From positions 1 through 12,767 of the forward strand of contig SKXI01000352.1 of NCBI GenBank assembly GCA_007128515.1: 12,767 nt of DNA, in the 5' to 3' direction. The notes under the pieces are model-generated. The model saw only the letters and a list, made by a program, of their open reading frames with translations, searched no databases and was not told the DNA's origin. Positions 2,502-11,931 of this stretch are shown piece after piece. A program made the translations under genes and the position numbers. The first letter of the stretch is position 1. Every line of letters starts with the position of its first letter. This stretch comes from Halococcaceae archaeon. GTDB taxonomy: Archaea > Halobacteriota > Halobacteria > Halobacteriales > Halalkalicoccaceae.

Positions 2502-3539
2502 TCACTCGATCGTCGGGGGTGGGTGATAGCGCCCCTCCCGGGTCGAGGGGGAGGGAGCGGCCTTCTGGAGGGCCGTCTCGGCGACGTTCGCGCCGTAGTC
2601 GCCGATCCGGGTGAGCGAGTCCACGACCAGCCCGAGGTGCTGGGCGTCGACGGGGTCGATCTCGCGGAGGTGGTCGTCGATCGCTCGCGCATGCGTCTCG
2701 ATCCCCTCCGCACGGCCGAGCGTCGTCGAGGCGAGTTCGGTCGCCCGCTCGTCGTCGTCGACGAGGAAGGCGTCCATCGCGTCCTCGACGACCGCCGTCG
2801 CCTCCGCCTCGAGGGTCAGAAACGGCTCGCCGATCCCCTCGGGCAGCTCCTCGAGTTCGCCGACGTGGTGGCCGATCTTCACGGTGTGATCGGCGATCCG
2901 CTCGATCTGTCTGGCACAGCAACGGTAGTCGAAACAGGTCGCCCGGTCGACGTCGATCCGGGCGGCCGCCCGCGGATCGCGAAGCGCCGCACGGAACATC
3001 CGCGAGGTGACGTACCAGAGCCGGTCGACGTCGTCGTCCCGGGCGATCACGTCCCGGGCGAGCGCACGGTCGCTCTCGACCAGCGCCTCGATCGCGTCGC
3101 CGAGCATCGAGAGCGCGATCAGGCGCATCTGCATCACGGTGTTGTGGATCGAGAGCTCCGCCGAGTCGAGGAAATCCCGGAGGACGATCCGGTCGTCGGT
3201 CTCGGTGCTCACCTCGAAGCCGACGAGGCCGGTCGTCACCGAGCGGACCGCACGTCGCTGTTGGGGGGTGATCCCGTCGGATTCGAGGACGATCTCCGGG
3301 AAGCCGTTGACGTAGAGCGTGATCACGCGGCTGACCAGCTCGGTCTCCTCGACGCCGGAGACGTCGACGGTCGCGGCGGCCTCCGTGGGGTACTCGTTCG
3401 GTGTCGCGATCAGCGAGTCGGCCTCGCGGAAGAACGCGAGCTCCGTCCCGGCCTCGATACCGAGGTCGGTCGCCCACTCCTTCGGGAGCGAGACGGTGAA
3501 CGTCGACCCGCCCGTGATCTGGACCTTTCGGACCTCCAT
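2502..3539 (-). CDS. AbrB-type DNA-binding domain fused to PhoU domains; likely phosphate regulator
   Basis: 345 aa. Residues 1-48 form a SpoVT/AbrB swapped-hairpin DNA-binding domain (MEVRKVQITGGSTFTVSLPK, then EWATDLGIEAGTEL). A short linker leads to a helical PhoU-type region at about 120-328. Within it are two PhoU-like signatures, RQIERIADHTVKIG (210-223) and DSLTRIGDYGANVA (307-320). PhoU proteins act at the Pst transporter; joining one to a DNA-binding domain suggests a direct regulator of phosphate genes. It diverges from pstS across a 365-bp region, the position expected of a local regulator. The ATG at 3539 is chosen because the AbrB domain starts there, and a TTATGT box lies about 26 nt upstream with a TCTATATACTT box about 45 nt upstream. 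An N-terminal extension to 3710 is possible but is not AbrB-like. Repressor or activator cannot be decided. Confidence 0.92.
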   Translation of the reverse strand: MEVRKVQITGGSTFTVSLPKEWATDLGIEAGTELAFFREADSLIATPNEYPTEAAATVDVSGVEETELVSRVITLYVNGFPEIVLESDGITPQQRRAVRSVTTGLVGFEVSTETDDRIVLRDFLDSAELSIHNTVMQMRLIALSMLGDAIEALVESDRALARDVIARDDDVDRLWYVTSRMFRAALRDPRAAARIDVDRATCFDYRCCARQIERIADHTVKIGHHVGELEELPEGIGEPFLTLEAEATAVVEDAMDAFLVDDDERATELASTTLGRAEGIETHARAIDDHLREIDPVDAQHLGLVVDSLTRIGDYGANVAETALQKAAPSPSTREGRYHPPPTIE

Positions 3540-3561
3540 GGTCGTCGTTCGCACTGCTTGT

Positions 3562-3588
3562 ACATAAGCCTGTCCAGAAGTATATAGA
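3562..3588 (-). promoter_or_regulatory. Promoter boxes of the AbrB-PhoU gene
   Basis: On the minus strand two TATA-like boxes precede the ATG at 3539: TCTATATACTT (3578-3588) and CTTATGTA (3561-3568). The nearer one would give a leaderless mRNA; the farther would give a leader of about 18 nt. The farther box closely resembles the TCTATATATT box before pstS on the opposite strand, which hints at shared control of the two divergent units. Confidence 0.5.
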
Positions 3589-3712
3589 ATAATCAGAGTC
3601 GTCGTTCGAGACGGGTAGATCACCGATGAGACGAACTCGAACGAGTCGTCTATCGAGTGGGTTGATATCGCTCCCGAGATCCGAGCAGGGAACCTCTCAG
3701 ATCGGCCCACTT

Positions 3713-3904: not shown

Positions 3905-4969
3905 ATGGCACACGACCCATCGCGGATCAGGGGGAGCACTACACGACGAGCGTTCATCGCGACGGCTGGCGCTGCGAGCGCGTTTTCGCTCGCCGGGTGT
4001 ATGGACACCCTCGAGAGCGCCGCCGACGAGACCGCCGCGATCAACACGGTCGCCGTCGAGAGCGACCAGGACGGGGAGTTCTACCACCCCACCCAGGAGA
4101 ACATCGAGAGCGGCGTCTACTCGCCGCTGACGAGGCCGCTGTTCATCTACGTGAACCACGCGACGCTGGAGGAGAACCCGGACCTGATCGGCTCGTTCGT
4201 CCAGTTCTACTTCGAGGGTCAGCACGACTTCGCCCGCGAGACGGGCTACTACGCCGCGACCGACGAGGTCCGCGACGGGAACATGGGGGAGTTTCAGGCC
4301 GTTCTCGACGACCTCGGGCTCGACCCTGACCCGGCCAACGCGGAGGGCACCGTCGAGTGCTCGGGCTCGAACACGGTCGCGCCGGTCACCGACGCGGCCG
4401 GCGAGGACTTCGAGGCCGAACACAAGGGTGTGACGGTCGCGGTCAACCCCGAGGGGACGGGTGCGGGCTTCGAGGACTTCTCGACCGGCGGTTCGGACAT
4501 CCAGAGCGCGAGCCGGGAGATCCTCGACGAGGAGGCCGAGCAGGCCGAGGAGAACGGCGTCGAGTACAGCCACTACGAGATCGGCTGGGACGGGCTCTCG
4601 GTCGTCAAACACGCCGACAACGACTGGATGGAGGAGGTCACGCTCGACGAACTCCACGAGGTCTGGCGCTTCGAGTCCGAGATCACACAGTGGAGCGACA
4701 TCCGCGAGGACTACCCGGACGACGAGGTCGAGCTCTGGGGTCGCGACGACGACTCCGGGACGTTCGACTACTTCACCCGCGAGATCAACGGCGAGATCGG
4801 CTCGATCCGTACGGACTACAGCGCCCACACCGACACCGGCTCGATCATGGAGGGGGTCGCGGAGAACCAGTACGCCTTCGGCTGGGGCGGCGTCGGCTAC
4901 TTCACCGAACTCGGCGGGACGCCCGGCGAGGCGCTCGACGTCGAGGAGACCGACGACGAAGACGAGTGA
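3905..4969 (+). CDS. pstS: PstS phosphate-binding Tat lipoprotein with circularly permuted domain order
   Basis: 354 aa. A twin-arginine signal (TTRRAFIAT, RR at 14-15) ends in lipobox LAGC, with Cys32 as the likely lipid anchor, so it works on the outer face of the membrane. The phosphate-binding core is at about 150-335: SGSNTVAP (153-160), GTGAGFEDF (184-192), SASREI (201-206), and RDDDSGT (280-286), where the Arg and SGT match the E. coli PstS ligands R135 and S139-G140-T141. It closes with NQYAFGWGGVGYF (321-333). In ordinary PstS this is followed by a C-terminal block. Here that block lies ahead of the core: residues 46-135 carry VAVESDQDGEFYHPTQEN, SPLTRPLFIYVN (73-84), GSFVQFYFE and ARETGYYAATDEV (110-122). 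The protein then ends soon after residue 345 with an acidic tail. The reading frame is open throughout. It leads the pst operon. Confidence 0.95.
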   Translation: MAHDPSRIRGSTTRRAFIATAGAASAFSLAGCMDTLESAADETAAINTVAVESDQDGEFYHPTQENIESGVYSPLTRPLFIYVNHATLEENPDLIGSFVQFYFEGQHDFARETGYYAATDEVRDGNMGEFQAVLDDLGLDPDPANAEGTVECSGSNTVAPVTDAAGEDFEAEHKGVTVAVNPEGTGAGFEDFSTGGSDIQSASREILDEEAEQAEENGVEYSHYEIGWDGLSVVKHADNDWMEEVTLDELHEVWRFESEITQWSDIREDYPDDEVELWGRDDDSGTFDYFTREINGEIGSIRTDYSAHTDTGSIMEGVAENQYAFGWGGVGYFTELGGTPGEALDVEETDDEDE

Positions 4970-4983
4970 CGGGACCGATCTAG

Positions 4984-6003
4984 ATGAGCACGGACGCCAC
5001 CACCGACCCCGGACCGGGGATCACCGGCGACGTCGCGGCCGCGGACCAGCGACGCGACCGGCTGATCCGCCGGGTCCTCTTCGGCTGTACGTCGATCACG
5101 GTGTTGACGACGATCGCGATCTTCGTCGTGCTGCTCGACAACACCTGGGGTTTCTTCTTCGACGCGACGTTCTCGCAGTGGCTGGTGCGATCGGTGACGA
5201 GCCTCACGGTCGAGGGGCTGACCCAGCGGATCGCGGTCACCGAGTTCCTCTTCGACACCGAGTGGCGGCCCTCCCACGCCGACGACCCGCGATTCGGGAT
5301 CATGACGCTCGTCTCGGCGACGGTCCTGATCACGGTCGGGGCGGCGTTCGTCTCGATCCCGATCGGGACCGCGGCGGCGCTCTACCTCTCGGAGTACGCG
5401 AGCGTGCGGACGAGGAAGTACCTCAAGCCGACGCTCGAAGTGCTCGCGGGGGTGCCGACGATCGTCTACGGCTTCTTCGCGGTCTCGTTCGTCACGCCGG
5501 TCTTGCTCAGGCCGGTGCTCGAACTGTTCGGGCTCTCGATCGGCCGGAACAACGTACTGTCGGCGATGGTCGTCGTCGGGATCATGACGATCCCGATGGT
5601 CGCATCGATCTCGGAGGACGCGATGCGGGCGGTTCCCGACGACCTCAGAAACGGTGCGTACGCCCTCGGTGCCTCGAAGTACGAGGTGTCCACGAGCGTC
5701 GTCCTCCCGGCGTCGATCTCCGGGATCTTCGCGTCGTACATACTCGCGGTGAGCCGGGCGATCGGGGAGACGATGGCGGTGACGCTCGCGGCGGGGGCGA
5801 CCCCGACGCTGACGGCGAACCCGCTCGCGGAGGTCCAGACGATGACCGCCTACATGGTGACGACGATGCGCTCGACGGCCGGCGTCGGCTCGATCACCTA
5901 CCAGAGCCTCTTCGCCGTCGGGCTGGTGCTCTTCCTGATGACGCTCGTCGCGAACCTGATCAACGACTACATCAAACGCCGCTACCGGGAGGTCTACCGG
6001 TGA
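4984..6003 (+). CDS. pstC: Phosphate ABC transporter permease PstC
   Basis: 339 aa, an integral membrane protein that forms half of the phosphate channel with PstA. There is a cytoplasmic N-terminus of about 28 residues and a first helix (about 29-51). An external loop (52-104), typical of PstC, follows, then a MetI-type permease domain with helices near 107-135, 153-175, 190-209, 244-264 and 305-327. The cytoplasmic coupling (EAA) loop that contacts PstB reads EDAMRAVPDDLRNGAYALGA (211-230) and continues to VVLP (239-242). VSRAIGETMAVTLAAG (256-271) is also typical. It starts 14 bp after pstS with no clear Shine-Dalgarno site, so it is probably translated from the shared mRNA. PstC rather than PstA is assigned from the order in the operon and the long first loop. 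Confidence 0.95.
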   Translation: MSTDATTDPGPGITGDVAAADQRRDRLIRRVLFGCTSITVLTTIAIFVVLLDNTWGFFFDATFSQWLVRSVTSLTVEGLTQRIAVTEFLFDTEWRPSHADDPRFGIMTLVSATVLITVGAAFVSIPIGTAAALYLSEYASVRTRKYLKPTLEVLAGVPTIVYGFFAVSFVTPVLLRPVLELFGLSIGRNNVLSAMVVVGIMTIPMVASISEDAMRAVPDDLRNGAYALGASKYEVSTSVVLPASISGIFASYILAVSRAIGETMAVTLAAGATPTLTANPLAEVQTMTAYMVTTMRSTAGVGSITYQSLFAVGLVLFLMTLVANLINDYIKRRYREVYR

Positions 6004-6055
6004 CCCCCCTCCCGAGGACGGATCGTCCGCGGTCCGCAGGTCGGGGGTGGCCACG

Positions 6056-6955
6056 GTGAGCACCGACACCGATTCCGGGGTGCTCTCCGACGCCGACCTG
6101 CGGTGGGTCAAGCGAAAGGAGGTGCTGTTCCACGCCACGCTGTTCCTCGCGTCGGTCTTCGGCGTGGCCATGCTCGGGCTGCTCGTCTTCGACGTGCTGT
6201 TCGAGACCGCTGTGGGCGTGCTCGTCCTCGGCATCGACGTGACGACGTTCCTCACCAGCGGTGCCTCGCGGGACTGGGAGCGGGCCGGCTTCCTGCCCGC
6301 GATCATCGGCTCGGTCTGGCTCGTCCTCTTGACCCTGATCTTCTCCTTCTTCCTGGGTGTCTCGACCGCGACCTACCTGGAGGAGTACGCGCCGAACACC
6401 CGGACGGTGCGGCTGATCGAGGCGAACCTGACGAACCTCGCGGGGGTCCCGTCGGTCGTCTATGGGTTGCTAGCGCTCGGGGTGTTCGTCAACGGGCTCC
6501 GGCTGGGGTCGATCCTCCTCGCGGGTTCGATCGCGCTCGCGCTGCTGGTCGTGCCGATCGTCATCGTCGCGAGCCAGGAGGCGCTGCGGGCGGTCCCGAG
6601 CGGGGTGCGCGACGGTTCGCTCGCGACCGGCGCGACCCGGTGGCAGACGGTCCGCGGGGTCGTCCTCCCCGCGGCGCTGCCCGGCATCGTCACCGGGACG
6701 ATCCTCGCGCTCGCGCGGGCGATCGGCGAGACCGCGCCGCTGATCATGGTCGGGGCAGTGCTCCAGGCGAGACAGACCCCCGACCCGTTCTCGCTGTTCG
6801 GGTCGATGCCGACGATGATCTACTACTGGGCGTTTCGCCCGATCACCGAGTTCCACAACCTCGCGGCGCTCGGCATCCTCGTCCTGCTCACGATCCTGGT
6901 CGGGATGTACGGCGTCGCGTTCTTCGTGCGAAACCGGTACGAACGGAGGCTCTGA
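6056..6955 (+). CDS. pstA: Phosphate ABC transporter permease PstA
   Basis: 299 aa from the chosen GTG at 6056; an in-frame GTG at 6047 would add three residues. I prefer 6056 because GGGGGTGG (6043-6050) then sits 5 nt upstream as a ribosome-binding site, and the resulting N-terminus (VSTDTDSG) resembles that of PstC (MSTDATTD). It is the second half of the membrane channel. A first helix lies at about 25-48. The MetI-type permease domain follows with helices near 82-104, 128-146, 150-172, 205-222 and 267-290. The EAA coupling loop reads [20 protein letters not shown] (174-193) and leads to [28 protein letters not shown] (218-235) is characteristic of PstA. The gap from pstC is 52 bp (43 with the earlier start), the largest inside the operon. 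The gene ends 1 bp before pstB. Confidence 0.94.
6945..6949 (+). promoter_or_regulatory. Shine-Dalgarno site for pstB
   Basis: GGAGG, complementary to the archaeal 16S rRNA 3' end, lies within the last codons of pstA with a 7-nt gap to the pstB ATG. It supports the start at 6957 and direct ribosome entry for an internal operon gene, in contrast to the leaderless genes elsewhere in the window. Confidence 0.75.
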
Positions 6956-6956
6956 G

Positions 6957-7781
6957 ATGGCAACAGGAGAGAACGAACCACTGATATCGACGGCGGTAAC
7001 GAGCCGGGAGACCGAGCGGTCGGCGCGGGCGGACGAGACGATCCTCGAGGCGAGGGGTCTCGACGTCCACTACGGCGAGGATCGGGCGCTTCGGGAGGTC
7101 ACGGCCGAGATCCCGGAGCGAAAGGTGACGGCGATCATCGGTCCCTCGGGCTGTGGGAAGTCCACGTTCCTCCGGTCGATCAACCGGATGAACGACCAGA
7201 TCGAGGTCTGTCGTGTCGAGGGCGACCTCCTGTTCAGGGGGAAGAACGTCTACGACGACGACGTCGATCCGGTCGCCCTGCGCCGGAAGATCGGCCAGGT
7301 GTTCCAGAAGCCGAACCCGTTCCCGAAGTCGATCCGGGACAACGTCACCTACGGGCTGAGGGTCCAGGGCAAGTCCGCGACCGACGACGACGTCGAACGG
7401 GCGCTCCGCGGGGCAGCGCTCTGGAGCGAGGTCGAGGGGAAACTCGACTCCTCCGGGCTCGATCTCTCGGGCGGCCAACAGCAGCGTCTCTGCATCGCGC
7501 GTGCGATCGCACCCGATCCGGAGGTGGTCCTGATGGACGAACCGACGAGCGCGCTCGACCCAGTCGCGGCCTCGAAGATCGAGGACCTGATCGCCGAACT
7601 CGCACGCGAGTACACCGTGGTGATCGTCACGCACAACATGCAGCAGGCCGCCCGAATCAGTGACGAAACGATGGTCTTTCTCACCGGCGGCGAGCTGGTG
7701 GAGTTCGACGACACGGCCACGATCTTCGAGAACCCGGCGAACCAGGCGGTCGAGGACTACATCACCGGGAAGTTCGGGTGA
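6957..7781 (+). CDS. pstB: Phosphate ABC transporter ATPase PstB
   Basis: 274 aa, the cytoplasmic ATP-hydrolysing subunit that drives phosphate import through PstC/PstA. All ABC motifs are intact: Walker [10 protein letters not shown] (62-70), Q-loop Gln117 in [11 protein letters not shown] (the PNPFP stretch is typical of PstB), signature LSGGQQQR (170-177), Walker [13 protein letters not shown] (190-201) and switch His226 in [11 protein letters not shown]. The end, DYITGKFG, is also typical. The first 27 residues are an unconserved acidic extension. GGAGG 7 nt before the ATG fixes the start, 1 bp after the pstA stop. PhoU follows after 4 bp, so pstA, pstB and phoU are probably translationally linked. 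Confidence 0.98.
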
Positions 7782-7785
7782 GTCC

Positions 7786-8454
7786 GTGAGCCGCTTCGAG
7801 TACCGCGCGCAGCTGCGGGCGCTTCGGGAGGAGCTGCTGGCGATGAGCGACCTGGTCTGTGAGGCGCTCCAGCGCGCGCTCGAGGCGTTCGAGGCGAGGG
7901 ACGCTGAGATCGCCTCGCTCGTCGTCGAGGGAGATCGGGAGATCAACGAGCGGTATCTCGCGATCGAACGCCGGTGTATCGAGCTGATCGCCCGCCAGCA
8001 GCCGGTCGCGGGCGAGATGCGTGTCGTCGTCGCGACGTTCAAGATCAGCACGGACCTCGAACGGGTCGGCGACCTCGCGACGAACCTCGCTACCTACGCC
8101 ATCCAGGGCGAGCGCCACGCCTACCCCGAGGTCGACGCCGGGACGATCGGGCGACACGCCCTCGCGATGGTCCGAGAGGCGGTGGCCGCCTACGCGACCG
8201 AGGACGCCGAGGCCTGCTACGCGGTCGCCGACCGCGACGAGGCGCTCGACCGTCTCTGTGAGGCCGCCAACGGGATCGTGGTCCACGATCTGCTCGCCGA
8301 TAGGGGTCCGGACGACTCCGTGGAGACACTGCTCGCGGACGTCTCGCGGCTCTTCCTCACGATCCGGGACCTCGAACGGGTCGGCGACCACGCGGTGAAC
8401 CTCGCCGCACGCACGCTCTACATGGCCGAGGGGAACGACGACCTGCTCGCCTGA
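7786..8454 (+). CDS. phoU: Phosphate signalling protein PhoU
   Basis: 222 aa, the usual length for PhoU. It is all-helical with two three-helix repeats, each marked by the metal-binding signature: TDLERVGDLATNLA (89-102) and RDLERVGDHAVNLA (194-207). In bacteria PhoU sits between the Pst transporter and the phosphate sensor kinase and represses uptake when phosphate is plentiful. Here no PhoR/PhoB is visible, and the likely partners are PstB and perhaps the AbrB-PhoU protein encoded across the regulatory region. I chose the GTG at 7786: it lies 4 bp after the pstB stop, keeps the reading frame, and has a GGTGA match just upstream (7777-7781). The longer reading into pstB is out of frame with pstB and carries no PhoU features. 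It is the last gene of the operon. Confidence 0.95.
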   Translation: MSRFEYRAQLRALREELLAMSDLVCEALQRALEAFEARDAEIASLVVEGDREINERYLAIERRCIELIARQQPVAGEMRVVVATFKISTDLERVGDLATNLATYAIQGERHAYPEVDAGTIGRHALAMVREAVAAYATEDAEACYAVADRDEALDRLCEAANGIVVHDLLADRGPDDSVETLLADVSRLFLTIRDLERVGDHAVNLAARTLYMAEGNDDLLA

Positions 8455-8550: not shown

Positions 8551-9171
8551 TCACGCCCCGGGGACCGGGGCGAGCGTCACGGCGTAGAACGCGAGGACCG
8601 AGAGCGTGCCGACGGCGACGAGCATCGCCGGCCACGTGAGCGAGCCGTCGCGGAGGATCGCGGCGGGATCGGCGAGCAGCTCCCCCGTGGACGGGAGGGC
8701 ACTCGTCCGGAGGATCGCGAGTTCGAGGCCGAAGAGCGTCACCGTCGCGGCGGCGGATACCATGCAGAACGGGCAGATCGCCCCGATCACACCGATCTGG
8801 AGGTAGACGAAGACCAGAGAGGCGAGCACGCCGCTCGCGGTGAGCGGGGTGAGCAGTTTCACGACGGACGGGTGGCGTGTCTCGAACCACAACCCGGCGA
8901 GGACTATCGTCGTCAGGTAGTAGAGCGCCCCGAGCAGCGCGAGCGGCACGCCGAGGACGTAGGCGTACTCGCTGGTGATCACGAGCATACTTCCGCTCGG
9001 TTCGACTCCCGGCGGTAGCGGGAGCGCCCAGAGGTGTATCCCGGTGAGGAAGACGCTCACGAGCCAGCCGACGATCGCGACGGCGGTGAACAGGCCGAAC
9101 AGCGTCGGAACGCGGTCGGCGTAGCCCCACTCGGCGGTGGACGGACGGGTGGTGACGGTTTCGGTGGTCAT
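8551..9171 (-). CDS. VKOR-family membrane protein with only the CXXC cysteine pair
   Basis: 206 aa with about five hydrophobic helices (near 24-46, 69-93, 107-127, 129-154 and 181-203). It matches the vitamin K epoxide reductase fold: the loop and helix SEYAYVLGVPLALLGALYYL (67-86) correspond to the conserved S-Y-x-x-x-G-I-P segment, and CPFC (133-136) is the quinone-side redox motif. VKOR proteins oxidise partner thiols through a second pair of loop cysteines and pass electrons to quinone. Here that loop (about 47-66, ending PSGSMLVITS) has no cysteine, and the CPFC pair holds the only cysteines in the protein. Standard disulfide relay is therefore doubtful. The ATG at 9171 is preferred over an upstream ATG at 9222 because a TATA-like box (AATACTTATC) lies about 31 nt upstream of it. 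It diverges from the photolyase gene. Confidence 0.85.
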   Translation of the reverse strand: MTTETVTTRPSTAEWGYADRVPTLFGLFTAVAIVGWLVSVFLTGIHLWALPLPPGVEPSGSMLVITSEYAYVLGVPLALLGALYYLTTIVLAGLWFETRHPSVVKLLTPLTASGVLASLVFVYLQIGVIGAICPFCMVSAAATVTLFGLELAILRTSALPSTGELLADPAAILRDGSLTWPAMLVAVGTLSVLAFYAVTLAPVPGA

Positions 9172-9197
9172 GCGGATGGTGATAACGGACGGAGTGC

Positions 9198-9237
9198 GAT
9201 AAGTATTGTGAATACTGTACAATATAGTGAACTACTG
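9198..9237. promoter_or_regulatory. VKOR-like gene promoter overlapped by palindromic repeats
   Basis: On the minus strand AATACTTATC (9198-9207) is a TATA-like box about 31 nt before the ATG at 9171. It overlaps a perfect inverted repeat, AGTATT-GTG-AATACT (9202-9216). A related sequence follows 19 bp along: TATTGTGAATACTG (9204-9217) against TATAGTGAACTACTG (9223-9237), the latter containing TAGT-GA-ACTA. A repressor bound here would block TATA recognition. The same AT-rich block could also serve the photolyase gene, which has no clear TATA box near its ATG. Confidence 0.55.
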
Positions 9238-9321: not shown

Positions 9322-10704
9322 ATGGAACTCTGCTGGCACCGGCGGGACCTCCGCGTCGCGGACAACCGTGCGCTCGCCGCCTGTGACTGGACGCTCCCCG
9401 TCTTCGTCTTCGACGACTCGGTCCTCGCACACGCCGGTCCCCCGCGGGTGGCGTTCATGCTCGACGCGCTCTCGGCGCTTCGCGAGGCCTACCGCGATCT
9501 CGGTGGCGACCTGCTCGTCGAACGCGGCGATCCCTCGACGATGATCGCCGATCTCGCGTCGGAGTTCGGGGTCGACCGGGTCGTCTGGAACGAGGACTAC
9601 TCGGGGCTCGCGCGGGAGCGGGACGAGGCGGTCCGCGCCGCCCTCGACGAGGAGGGGATCGACCACGAGACGTACCACGACGCGATCCATCACGAGCCGG
9701 GGACGGTGTTGACCAACGACGGCGAGCCGTACTCGGTGTTCACCTACTTCTGGAAGAAGTGGCGCGACCGGGAGAAGGCCGACCCGGTCTCGCCACCCGA
9801 CGAGATCGCGGATGGCGACGGGGGAATACCGACGCTCTCGGAGCTCGGGTTCGACGAGCCGGCGGGATCGGTGCCGGAAGCGAGCACCGAGGCCGCGGAG
9901 GACCTCCTCGCTGCGTTCTGTGACGGCCCGATCTACCGCTACGCCGAGGACCGCGACTACCCGGAGCGCGAGTGTACCTCGCGGCTCTCGCCGCACCTGA
10001 AGTTCGGGACGATCGGTATCAGACGGGTGTGGGAGGCGACCGAGGAGGCCAGAGAGAGCGCGGAGAGCGAGGAAGAACGCGAGTCGGTCTCCGAGTTCCA
10101 GTCACAGCTGGCCTGGCGGGAGTTCTACACGCAGGTGCTCGCCTACCACCCTCACGTCGTCACGGAGAACTACAGGGAGTACTCGAACGGGATCGAGTGG
10201 CGCAGCGACGAGGAGGGGCTGGCCGCCTGGAAGGCCGGCGAGACGGGTTATCCGATCGTCGACGCCGGGATGCGCCAGCTGAAGACCGAATCGTACATGC
10301 ACAACAGACTCAGAATGATCGTCGCCTCCTTCCTCACCAAGGACCTCCTGCTCGACTGGCGCGAGGGCTACGCCCACTTCAGGGAGTTCCTCGTGGATCA
10401 CGACACCGGTAATGACAACGGCGGCTGGCAGTGGGCCGCGTCCACTGGCACGGACGCCCAGCCCTATTTCAGGGTCTTCAACCCGATGACCCAGGGCGAG
10501 CGTTACGACCCGGACGCCGAGTACATCACCTCCTACGTCCCAGAGCTGGAGGGCGTCGACCCGGAGACGATCCACTCCTGGCACGAGATAGGGGACGACG
10601 AACGCGAGGAGGCGGCCCCGGAGTACCCGGCTCCGATCGTCGATCACGCGAAACGCCGCGAGGAGGCGATCGAGACGTTCGAACGCGCACGGGGGGACGA
10701 GTAG
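9322..10704 (+). CDS. phr2: Class I CPD photolyase (photolyase/cryptochrome family)
   Basis: 460 aa. A flavoprotein that repairs cyclobutane pyrimidine dimers using near-UV/blue light. The N-terminal Rossmann domain starts ELCWHRRDLRVADNRAL (2-18). The FAD-binding helical domain includes SRLSPHLKFGTIGIRRVW (220-237), QLAWREFY (262-269), MHNRLRMIVASFLTKDLL (326-343) and GGWQWAASTGTDAQPYFR (367-384). The electron-transfer Trp triad is present with E. coli spacing: W293, W346 and W369 (E. coli 306, 359 and 382). The residue four before W369, which faces flavin N5, is Asp365, where E. coli has Asn378. The N-terminus matches the family, so the ATG at 9322 is secure. Haloarchaea live in strong sunlight and commonly carry this gene. 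It ends directly against the CoA-transferase gene. The symbol follows haloarchaeal usage. Confidence 0.94.
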   Translation: MELCWHRRDLRVADNRALAACDWTLPVFVFDDSVLAHAGPPRVAFMLDALSALREAYRDLGGDLLVERGDPSTMIADLASEFGVDRVVWNEDYSGLARERDEAVRAALDEEGIDHETYHDAIHHEPGTVLTNDGEPYSVFTYFWKKWRDREKADPVSPPDEIADGDGGIPTLSELGFDEPAGSVPEASTEAAEDLLAAFCDGPIYRYAEDRDYPERECTSRLSPHLKFGTIGIRRVWEATEEARESAESEEERESVSEFQSQLAWREFYTQVLAYHPHVVTENYREYSNGIEWRSDEEGLAAWKAGETGYPIVDAGMRQLKTESYMHNRLRMIVASFLTKDLLLDWREGYAHFREFLVDHDTGNDNGGWQWAASTGTDAQPYFRVFNPMTQGERYDPDAEYITSYVPELEGVDPETIHSWHEIGDDEREEAAPEYPAPIVDHAKRREEAIETFERARGDE

Positions 10705-11931
10705 ATGGTCGGCGAGGCACGCGAACCGAGCAGCGACGACGGTCCGCTCTCCGGGATCACGGTCCTCGACGCCTCCCGGGTGCTCGTCGGCCCGTTCTGT
10801 ACGATGCAGCTCGGCGACCTCGGCGCGGACGTGATCAAGGTCGAGCGTCCGGGCGAGGGCGATCAGACCCGGAGGTGGCACCCGCCGACGTACGGCGAGA
10901 GCGGAGAGAGCACCTACTACCTGAGCGTCAACCGGAACAAACGTTCGGTGACGCTCGATTTCAGTACCGAGGAGGGCCAGGAGGTCTTCCGCCGGCTCGC
11001 ACGGGAGGCGGACGTGCTCGTCGAGAACTTCCGGGTCGGAACGCTCGAACGGTGGGGACTCGGCTACGAGACGCTCTCGGAGGGAAACCCGGGGCTGATC
11101 TACGCGAAGCTCTCGGGCTACGGCGAGTGGGGCCCGAAACGCGACGAGCCGGCGTACGACCTGGCGATCCAGGCTGAGGGCGGGTTCATGTCGATCACCG
11201 GTACCGAAGACGGCGAGCCGGTCCGCGTCGGCGTCGCCATCGCGGACATCGGCGCGGGGATGTACGCCACGCAGGCGATCCTCGCGGCCCTCTTTTCGCG
11301 CGAGATCGGAACCGGTGGGGGTCAGAAGATCGACGTGAGTCTGCTGGACGGGCAGGTGGCCTGGCTCACCTACATGGGGACCGCGTACCTCGCGACCGGA
11401 GTTGTACCGGAACGGATTGGGAGCAAACACCCGAACATCGTCCCGTACCGGGCGTTCGAGACCTCGGATGGGTACGTCGTGGTCGCCGCCGCGAGCGAGC
11501 CGATCTGGCGACGGCTCTGTACGGCGCTCGAGCGCGAGGGTCTCGTCGACGACGACCGGTTCGCGACGAACGCCGACCGGGTGGAAAACCGGGAAGCGCT
11601 CGACGCGATCCTCGAACCGATCTTCGAGGAGTTCACGGCCGAGGAACTGGTCGACCACCTCGCCGACCACGACGTGCCGGCGACGCCGGTCAACGATCTG
11701 GAGAGCGTGTTCGACTCGCCGCAGATCGCCGCACGTGGGATGCGCCAGACCGTCTCACATCCGACCGCGGGTTCGATCGAGCTGCCCGGCGTGCCGATGC
11801 ACTTCTCGGACGCGTCGACGGAGGTACGGAGACACCCGCCGTTGTTGGGCGAACACACCGAGGAGGTGCTCCACGAGATGGGGTACGAGGACGCTGAGAT
11901 CGCGCGGTTTCGGGACGCGGGTGCGATCTGA
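10705..11931 (+). CDS. Family III (CaiB/BaiF) CoA-transferase
   Basis: 408 aa, the normal length for the family, which moves CoA between carboxylic acids through an aspartyl-CoA intermediate. Conserved features are LSGITVLDASRVLVGPFCTM (15-34), LGDLGADVIKVERPGEGDQT (36-55), NRNKRSVTLDF (76-86), ADVLVENFRVGTLERWGLGY (102-121) and YDLAIQAEGGFMSITG (151-166), whose Asp152 is the expected catalytic nucleophile. The C-terminal half carries the usual RPxxLGEHTEEVL-like end (RHPPLLGEHTEEVL). The substrate cannot be predicted; formyl-, carnitine-, succinyl- and mesaconyl-CoA transferases all share this fold. The ATG directly follows the photolyase stop codon, so the two genes are probably co-transcribed although their functions are unrelated. 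The G-rich end of the photolyase gene is only a weak ribosome-binding site. Confidence 0.92.
   Translation: MVGEAREPSSDDGPLSGITVLDASRVLVGPFCTMQLGDLGADVIKVERPGEGDQTRRWHPPTYGESGESTYYLSVNRNKRSVTLDFSTEEGQEVFRRLAREADVLVENFRVGTLERWGLGYETLSEGNPGLIYAKLSGYGEWGPKRDEPAYDLAIQAEGGFMSITGTEDGEPVRVGVAIADIGAGMYATQAILAALFSREIGTGGGQKIDVSLLDGQVAWLTYMGTAYLATGVVPERIGSKHPNIVPYRAFETSDGYVVVAAASEPIWRRLCTALEREGLVDDDRFATNADRVENREALDAILEPIFEEFTAEELVDHLADHDVPATPVNDLESVFDSPQIAARGMRQTVSHPTAGSIELPGVPMHFSDASTEVRRHPPLLGEHTEEVLHEMGYEDAEIARFRDAGAI

Follow-up and report, generated by a model that had tools for sequence, protein, structure and literature searches.

A haloarchaeal PstS-type lipoprotein with the segment order of a circular permutant

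The 12,767-nucleotide stretch of DNA analyzed here (the window; contig SKXI01000352.1 of a Halococcaceae archaeon) carries, at the head of a pst operon, a gene at 3905–4969 whose 354-residue product we regard with high confidence as a natural circular permutant of a PstS-type phosphate-binding protein, a reading in which we include the scenario for its export, function and single origin set out below. Two segments of the product are homologous to one canonical protein, each occurs once, their order is swapped and the old termini are joined, which is what marks a natural circular permutant.

Segment order and distribution of the permuted protein

In a sequence search of the PDB, residues 141–336 of the product matched residues 54–249 of chain 4jwo_A (independent E-value 8e-45), while residues 45–117 matched residues 252–323 of the same chain (independent E-value 3e-5), so that the two stretches stand in swapped order. 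4jwo was the best match among solved structures. The moved block (residues 46–142) shares 66% identity with the genuine C-terminal block of P0025, the nearest canonical PstS, and after rotation 193 of 294 residues are identical over the whole comparison. The PBP_like_2 domain model (PF12849) scored 97.1 bits against a cut-off of 27 over residues 145–325. The PstS family model TIGR02136 matched in two stretches and reached 192.9 against a cut-off of 206.6, which counts against a full PstS assignment and is why we label the protein permuted and PstS-like. This shortfall does not come from the permutation alone, because the canonical-order P0025 also stays below the cut-off (194.6); for the same reason a sub-cut-off TIGR02136 score was dropped as a marker of permutation.

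A preliminary description of this DNA had placed the closing block of PstS directly behind the lipoprotein Cys32 and the phosphate motif SGSNTV only from residue 153, with all parts in one open frame and a twin-arginine signal at the front. The open reading frame and these motifs were recovered (R280...S284-G285-T286 and GVGYF at 329–333 among them), with the block at approximately residues 45–142 (Table 1), and alignment agrees with its pairing of the E. coli stretch ADGKPVSPTEEN with residues 53–66. The chain runs on for 21 residues after GVGYF, not the approximately 12 given there. We take the twin arginine at residues 14–15 to be a twin-arginine translocation (Tat) signal and the Cys32 motif to be a lipobox.

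The predicted structure is consistent with this layout. Its last helix (residues 120–137) and the following strand (148–155) flank the junction at 143–147, and the strands and helices predicted in models of the permuted and canonical proteins appear to be the same PstS elements, rotated. Residues 1–42 have a predicted local distance difference test score (pLDDT) below 50. The full collinear match to ordinary PstS that the preliminary description had proposed to look for was not returned by structure aligners run alongside canonical controls. Canonical haloarchaeal PstS (PBP_like_2/TIGR02136 type, represented by P0025, with 4jwo as a bacterial relative) shares with the permuted protein its sequence, predicted secondary structure, ligand positions, place in the operon and twin-arginine lipoprotein signal. 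The permuted protein differs in that its segments are swapped, its N-terminal end lies at the hinge and its C-terminal end behind the GVGYF helix, and its anchor sits beside the hinge strand.

The same order was then sought elsewhere, as the preliminary description had proposed, and it recurs across haloarchaeal proteins and genomes. A search of 5.8 billion proteins returned 531 relatives, the best 120 of which were listed. Together with the window protein these make 121 sequences, of which 27 align over their full length in a single piece and 94 align in two reversed pieces (query ~148–351 to canonical ~44–248; query ~31/46–142 to canonical ~230–334). The 26 other permuted proteins among the matches listed come from many assemblies, at 55–93% identity, with Natronorarus salvus, Halalkalicoccus tibetensis, Natronococcus amylolyticus, Natronorubrum texcoconense and N. 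daqingense as named carriers. They are annotated as "substrate-binding domain-containing protein" or as phosphate-binding protein; the rearrangement is invisible to such domain-level names. A second search, with a profile of the 27 permuted rows, returned 297 proteins, and its best 120 included 11 new ones but no additional permuted protein: nine are canonical (swapped pieces), P0131 is short, with the first block only, and P0124 is a tandem. Invariant residues common to the 27 rows are present in both blocks. The acidic C-terminal tail differs in length among relatives and is nearly missing in P0017, P0027 and P0028.

At the level of genomes, a sample of the class showed the permuted order in 9 of 391 genomes at an E-value of 1e-100 or better, eight of them besides the window's own. 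Four of ten genomes of the window's own family carry it (a fifth match, in G123 at a looser threshold, is canonical), as do 5 of 125 genomes of a second family, that of G020 (code f4). Scanning the genome contigs gave 30 loci: nine permuted (L004–L012), 18 canonical (two of them bacterial) and three cut or single-block (L014, L029, L032). We infer that the permuted form is spread patchily, mostly where the genome keeps another, canonical PstS.

Origin of the permutation

The permuted form would derive from canonical PstS and have appeared within the haloarchaea, probably a single time. The simplest route would begin with two pstS copies fused in frame and in tandem; copy 1 would then have lost the part between its signal and its hinge, and copy 2 would have been truncated. 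The trees were built from the 27 permuted rows, as rotated sequences, and 41 of the 103 aligned canonical rows. In the combined two-block tree a branch supported at 85/95 sets the permuted rows apart, and the moved block begins alike in all 27 rows, the spacing from the lipobox cysteine to T48 of the hinge strand being 10–18 residues and exactly 15 in 20 of them.

The strongest competing account, which we consider unlikely, has more than one origin for the permutation, or a fusion of two distinct pstS paralogues in place of a tandem duplication of one gene. Several results weigh against a single origin by tandem fusion. The tree of block A alone needs two changes, and in the tree of block B alone the branch that sets the permuted rows apart has a support of 34. 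Trees of PstC and PstA also need two changes and divide the permuted loci into two sets, with the canonical locus L027 close by. Since the single-block trees are weak, they leave room for two origins, and they are likewise too weak to settle whether paralogues were fused. Judged by the grouping in the PstC and PstA trees, with L027 near the permuted sets, the pst operon seems largely to travel together. An approximately unbiased (AU) test of the permuted rows with P0025 and P0057 as one clade did not reject that grouping (p = 0.476) and decides nothing.

Duplication followed by loss of outer parts, the origin suggested in the preliminary description, would be a plausible route, as another haloarchaeon carries two PstS copies fused in tandem. 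A remnant of the hinge in the C-terminal tail was not recovered: 169 of 300 joint column shuffles, which preserve the relatedness among rows, scored as well. For the N-terminal linker this number was 8 of 300, a weak hint. When rows were compared one by one with a profile of the canonical hinge, the tail outscored 95% of its own shuffles in 1 of 26 rows, and the linker did so in 7 of 27, a count in which the P0016 linker had been wrongly delimited. An apparent duplication footprint, in which BLAST pieces seemed to place both chain ends on the same canonical hinge residues, is not used as support for the origin, since in this scoring the tail shows nothing and the linker a weak hint.

The tandem lies in genome G079 (L034:4500–6500; G079:C2, reverse strand). 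It is a 679-residue open reading frame with two fused PstS domains (278 of 288 amino acids identical; 91% nucleotide identity) and one lipoprotein signal, with pstC, pstA, pstB and phoU downstream, on a 2.8-Mb contig of a two-contig genome. It shows that fused pstS duplicates do arise in haloarchaeal pst operons. Because it is only ~36% identical to the permuted protein, a further point against direct descent, we treat it as an analogue and not an ancestor. P0124 (647 residues, two near-perfect PstS copies at a spacing of 286 residues) was set aside as an intermediate: its contig is just 3.3 kb long, and copies so nearly identical may be artefactual there.

A canonical PstS (P0025) occupies the same gene place in L027 (L027:831–1847), which contains the locus of G123, a member of the window's genus. 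The signal peptides of L027 and the window are 80% identical over 30 residues and the flanking PhoU genes 81–84%, whereas PstS (compared by block), PstC, PstA and PstB are just 64–79% identical. Signal peptide and flanks being more similar than the core suggests, from sequence comparison, that related strains have exchanged the pst core.

Function and remaining explanations

Eight positions that we take to be the phosphate contacts of E. coli PstS correspond to residues 156, 157, 185, 203, 280, 284, 285 and 286. At four of them the residue is that of E. coli (R280, S284, G285, T286), at the other four it differs, and all eight are identical to the residues of canonical P0025. As the moved block holds none of the eight, the contact set lies in one continuous stretch. 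A codon comparison with a same-genus copy gave a nonsynonymous rate (dN) of 0.027 and a synonymous rate (dS) of 0.251, and pN/pS was 0.12–0.56 over the ten loci measured; L009, L010 and L012, where the motif used gave no open reading frame, were left out. The permuted gene is under purifying selection. Given the ligand positions shared with P0025 and the low dN/dS and pN/pS, the likeliest role, judged from sequence, would be ordinary phosphate capture for the PstCAB importer. The protein would be exported through the Tat pathway and lipid-anchored at Cys32. Going by the predicted model, the chain would run from the anchor into the hinge strand and no longer into the phosphate-loop strand. A predicted PstS-like closure around phosphate would then precede hand-over to the PstC-PstA-PstB importer encoded just downstream.

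A protein that is permuted but no longer serves as a transporter receptor, being a degenerate copy or a repurposed sensor beside canonical PstS, seems improbable to us. Its best argument, and a point against the receptor role, is that 10 of the 11 carrier genomes searched also hold a canonical-order PstS, so that the permuted one may be redundant there; nine of the 11, the window's genome included, have a PstS over the cut-off, with G412 just below it at 200.4. Purifying selection and the canonical state of all eight ligand positions argue the other way, as do the nine permuted loci (L004–L012), each of which has pstC-pstA-pstB-phoU downstream, as the window does, and no further PstS match within the locus stretch. 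In G340 (89% complete, 60 contigs) there was no PstS-family match besides the permuted gene, which may thus be the sole phosphate receptor of that genome; this makes the degenerate or repurposed reading slightly less likely still. The G340 gene (L075, G340:C35) is open from its ATG, with a TAG directly before it, and is followed by pstC and pstA in the stretch covered.

Two further explanations of the segment order can be set aside as having next to no chance of being correct. An assembly or annotation artefact would be favored by the state of the window's genome (62% complete, 501 contigs), but a misassembly at 4018–4370 would have to be repeated in independent genomes, including those of N. 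amylolyticus and N. texcoconense, and the order is found in high-completeness genomes of few contigs (G122, two contigs; G202, four contigs); with 26 other proteins among the matches listed and eight further genomes carrying it, chance or misassembly is not a fair reading. Similarly, the VIA rows for PstS entries, in which the alignment is mostly limited to ~138–346 of the permuted protein, might suggest that residues 45–142 are an unrelated N-terminal domain and that the true C-terminal lobe segment is missing, an outcome raised in the preliminary description for residues 46–135, but the 66% identity to the C-terminal block of P0025 and the elements common to both predicted models speak against it.

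Known systems, gene neighborhood and implications

The preliminary description knew of no described permuted PstS. The open-access literature searched (titles and abstract openings, with subscription journals mostly outside) agrees, as it yielded no description of one, but that statement needs qualifying on two counts. First, PDB entry 4h1x, PstS 2 of Streptococcus pneumoniae (SP_2084), appears in two sequence searches and one structure alignment to be permuted at another site. In these comparisons its cut seems to fall inside the middle part, which gives the order middle, C-terminal, N-terminal; the haloarchaeal protein is instead opened at the hinge. Entry 4H1X was not named in the open-access literature searched, and its absence from the 50 rows listed for the canonical control shows nothing by itself. 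Second, a permuted sugar-binding lipoprotein has been published. The paper describes TpMglB-2 (Tp0684) of Treponema pallidum and its Gram-positive relatives as a circularly permuted glucose-binding lipoprotein that keeps ligand binding and whose topology is possibly an adaptation to anchoring (PMC4990184). TpMglB-2 and the haloarchaeal protein are alike in being natural circular permutations of a lipid-anchored ATP-binding cassette (ABC) binding protein, and TpMglB-2 is set apart by its sugar-binding Type I/Cluster B fold, a poorly conserved permuted part, a fourth hinge crossing, and another ligand and lineage (PMC4990184). The domain of the haloarchaeal protein is instead of the PstS type (PF12849).

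To our knowledge the haloarchaeal protein is the first archaeal case and has its own cut site. Counting 4h1x, there seem to have been at least two permutations of PstS. We offer only tentatively, and with more doubt than conviction, the idea that circular permutation is a recurrent, selected way to relocate the lipid anchor of tethered binding proteins, with haloarchaeal PstS, PstS 2 and TpMglB-2 as independent cases. If true, the tether would have been moved off the ligand loop, altering closure or docking on the permease.

Features of the permuted gene and its surroundings are collected in Table 1. The open reading frame of phoU as listed begins at 7660, within pstB; the PhoU model spans its residues 48–260, and the gene probably starts at ~7784. 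The divergent gene encoding MazE/AbrB and PhoU domains adjoins the pst operon in the window and in several relatives, and is presumably a regulator of that operon.

Table 1. Features of the permuted gene, its product and the neighboring genes in the window
Feature	Position	Strand	Remarks
CDS (coding sequence), circularly permuted PstS-type lipoprotein	3905..4969	+	ATG start, open frame, 354 residues
Residues 1-32, twin-arginine signal peptide and lipobox, Cys32	3905..4000	+	G31 and C32 invariant, R14/R15 nearly invariant (27-row alignment)
Residues 45-142, moved block corresponding to canonical C-terminal third	4037..4330	+	Hinge strand, P-T-x-E-N, TRPLFIYV strand, last helices
Residues 143-147, new junction of old C-terminus to old N-terminus	4331..4345	+	Alignment and model
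Residues 148-336, canonical N-terminal and middle part	4346..4912	+	Carries all eight phosphate-ligand positions
Residues 337-354, acidic C-terminal tail	4913..4966	+	27-row alignment
pstC	4984..6003	+	TIGR02138, 241 bits (cut-off 196)
pstA	6047..6955	+	TIGR00974, 227.8 bits (cut-off 193)
pstB	6957..7781	+	TIGR00972, 363.7 bits (cut-off 343)
phoU	7784..8454	+	TIGR02135, 161 bits (cut-off 130)
Divergent gene, MazE/AbrB-type DNA-binding domain and PhoU domain	2502..3710	-	PF04014, PF01895
VKOR family protein	8551-9222	-	
DNA photolyase	9322-10704	+	
CoA-transferase family III	10705-11931	+	

In L027 the permuted protein has a canonical sister, ~66% identical to it, which comes from its genus and sits at the same locus. 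The two form a closely matched pair, useful for studying how folding, closure of the hinge and docking on the permease depend on chain ends and anchor position in ABC receptors. As a natural permutant present in several haloarchaeal genera, the protein is an experiment in how far a binding protein tolerates re-wiring.
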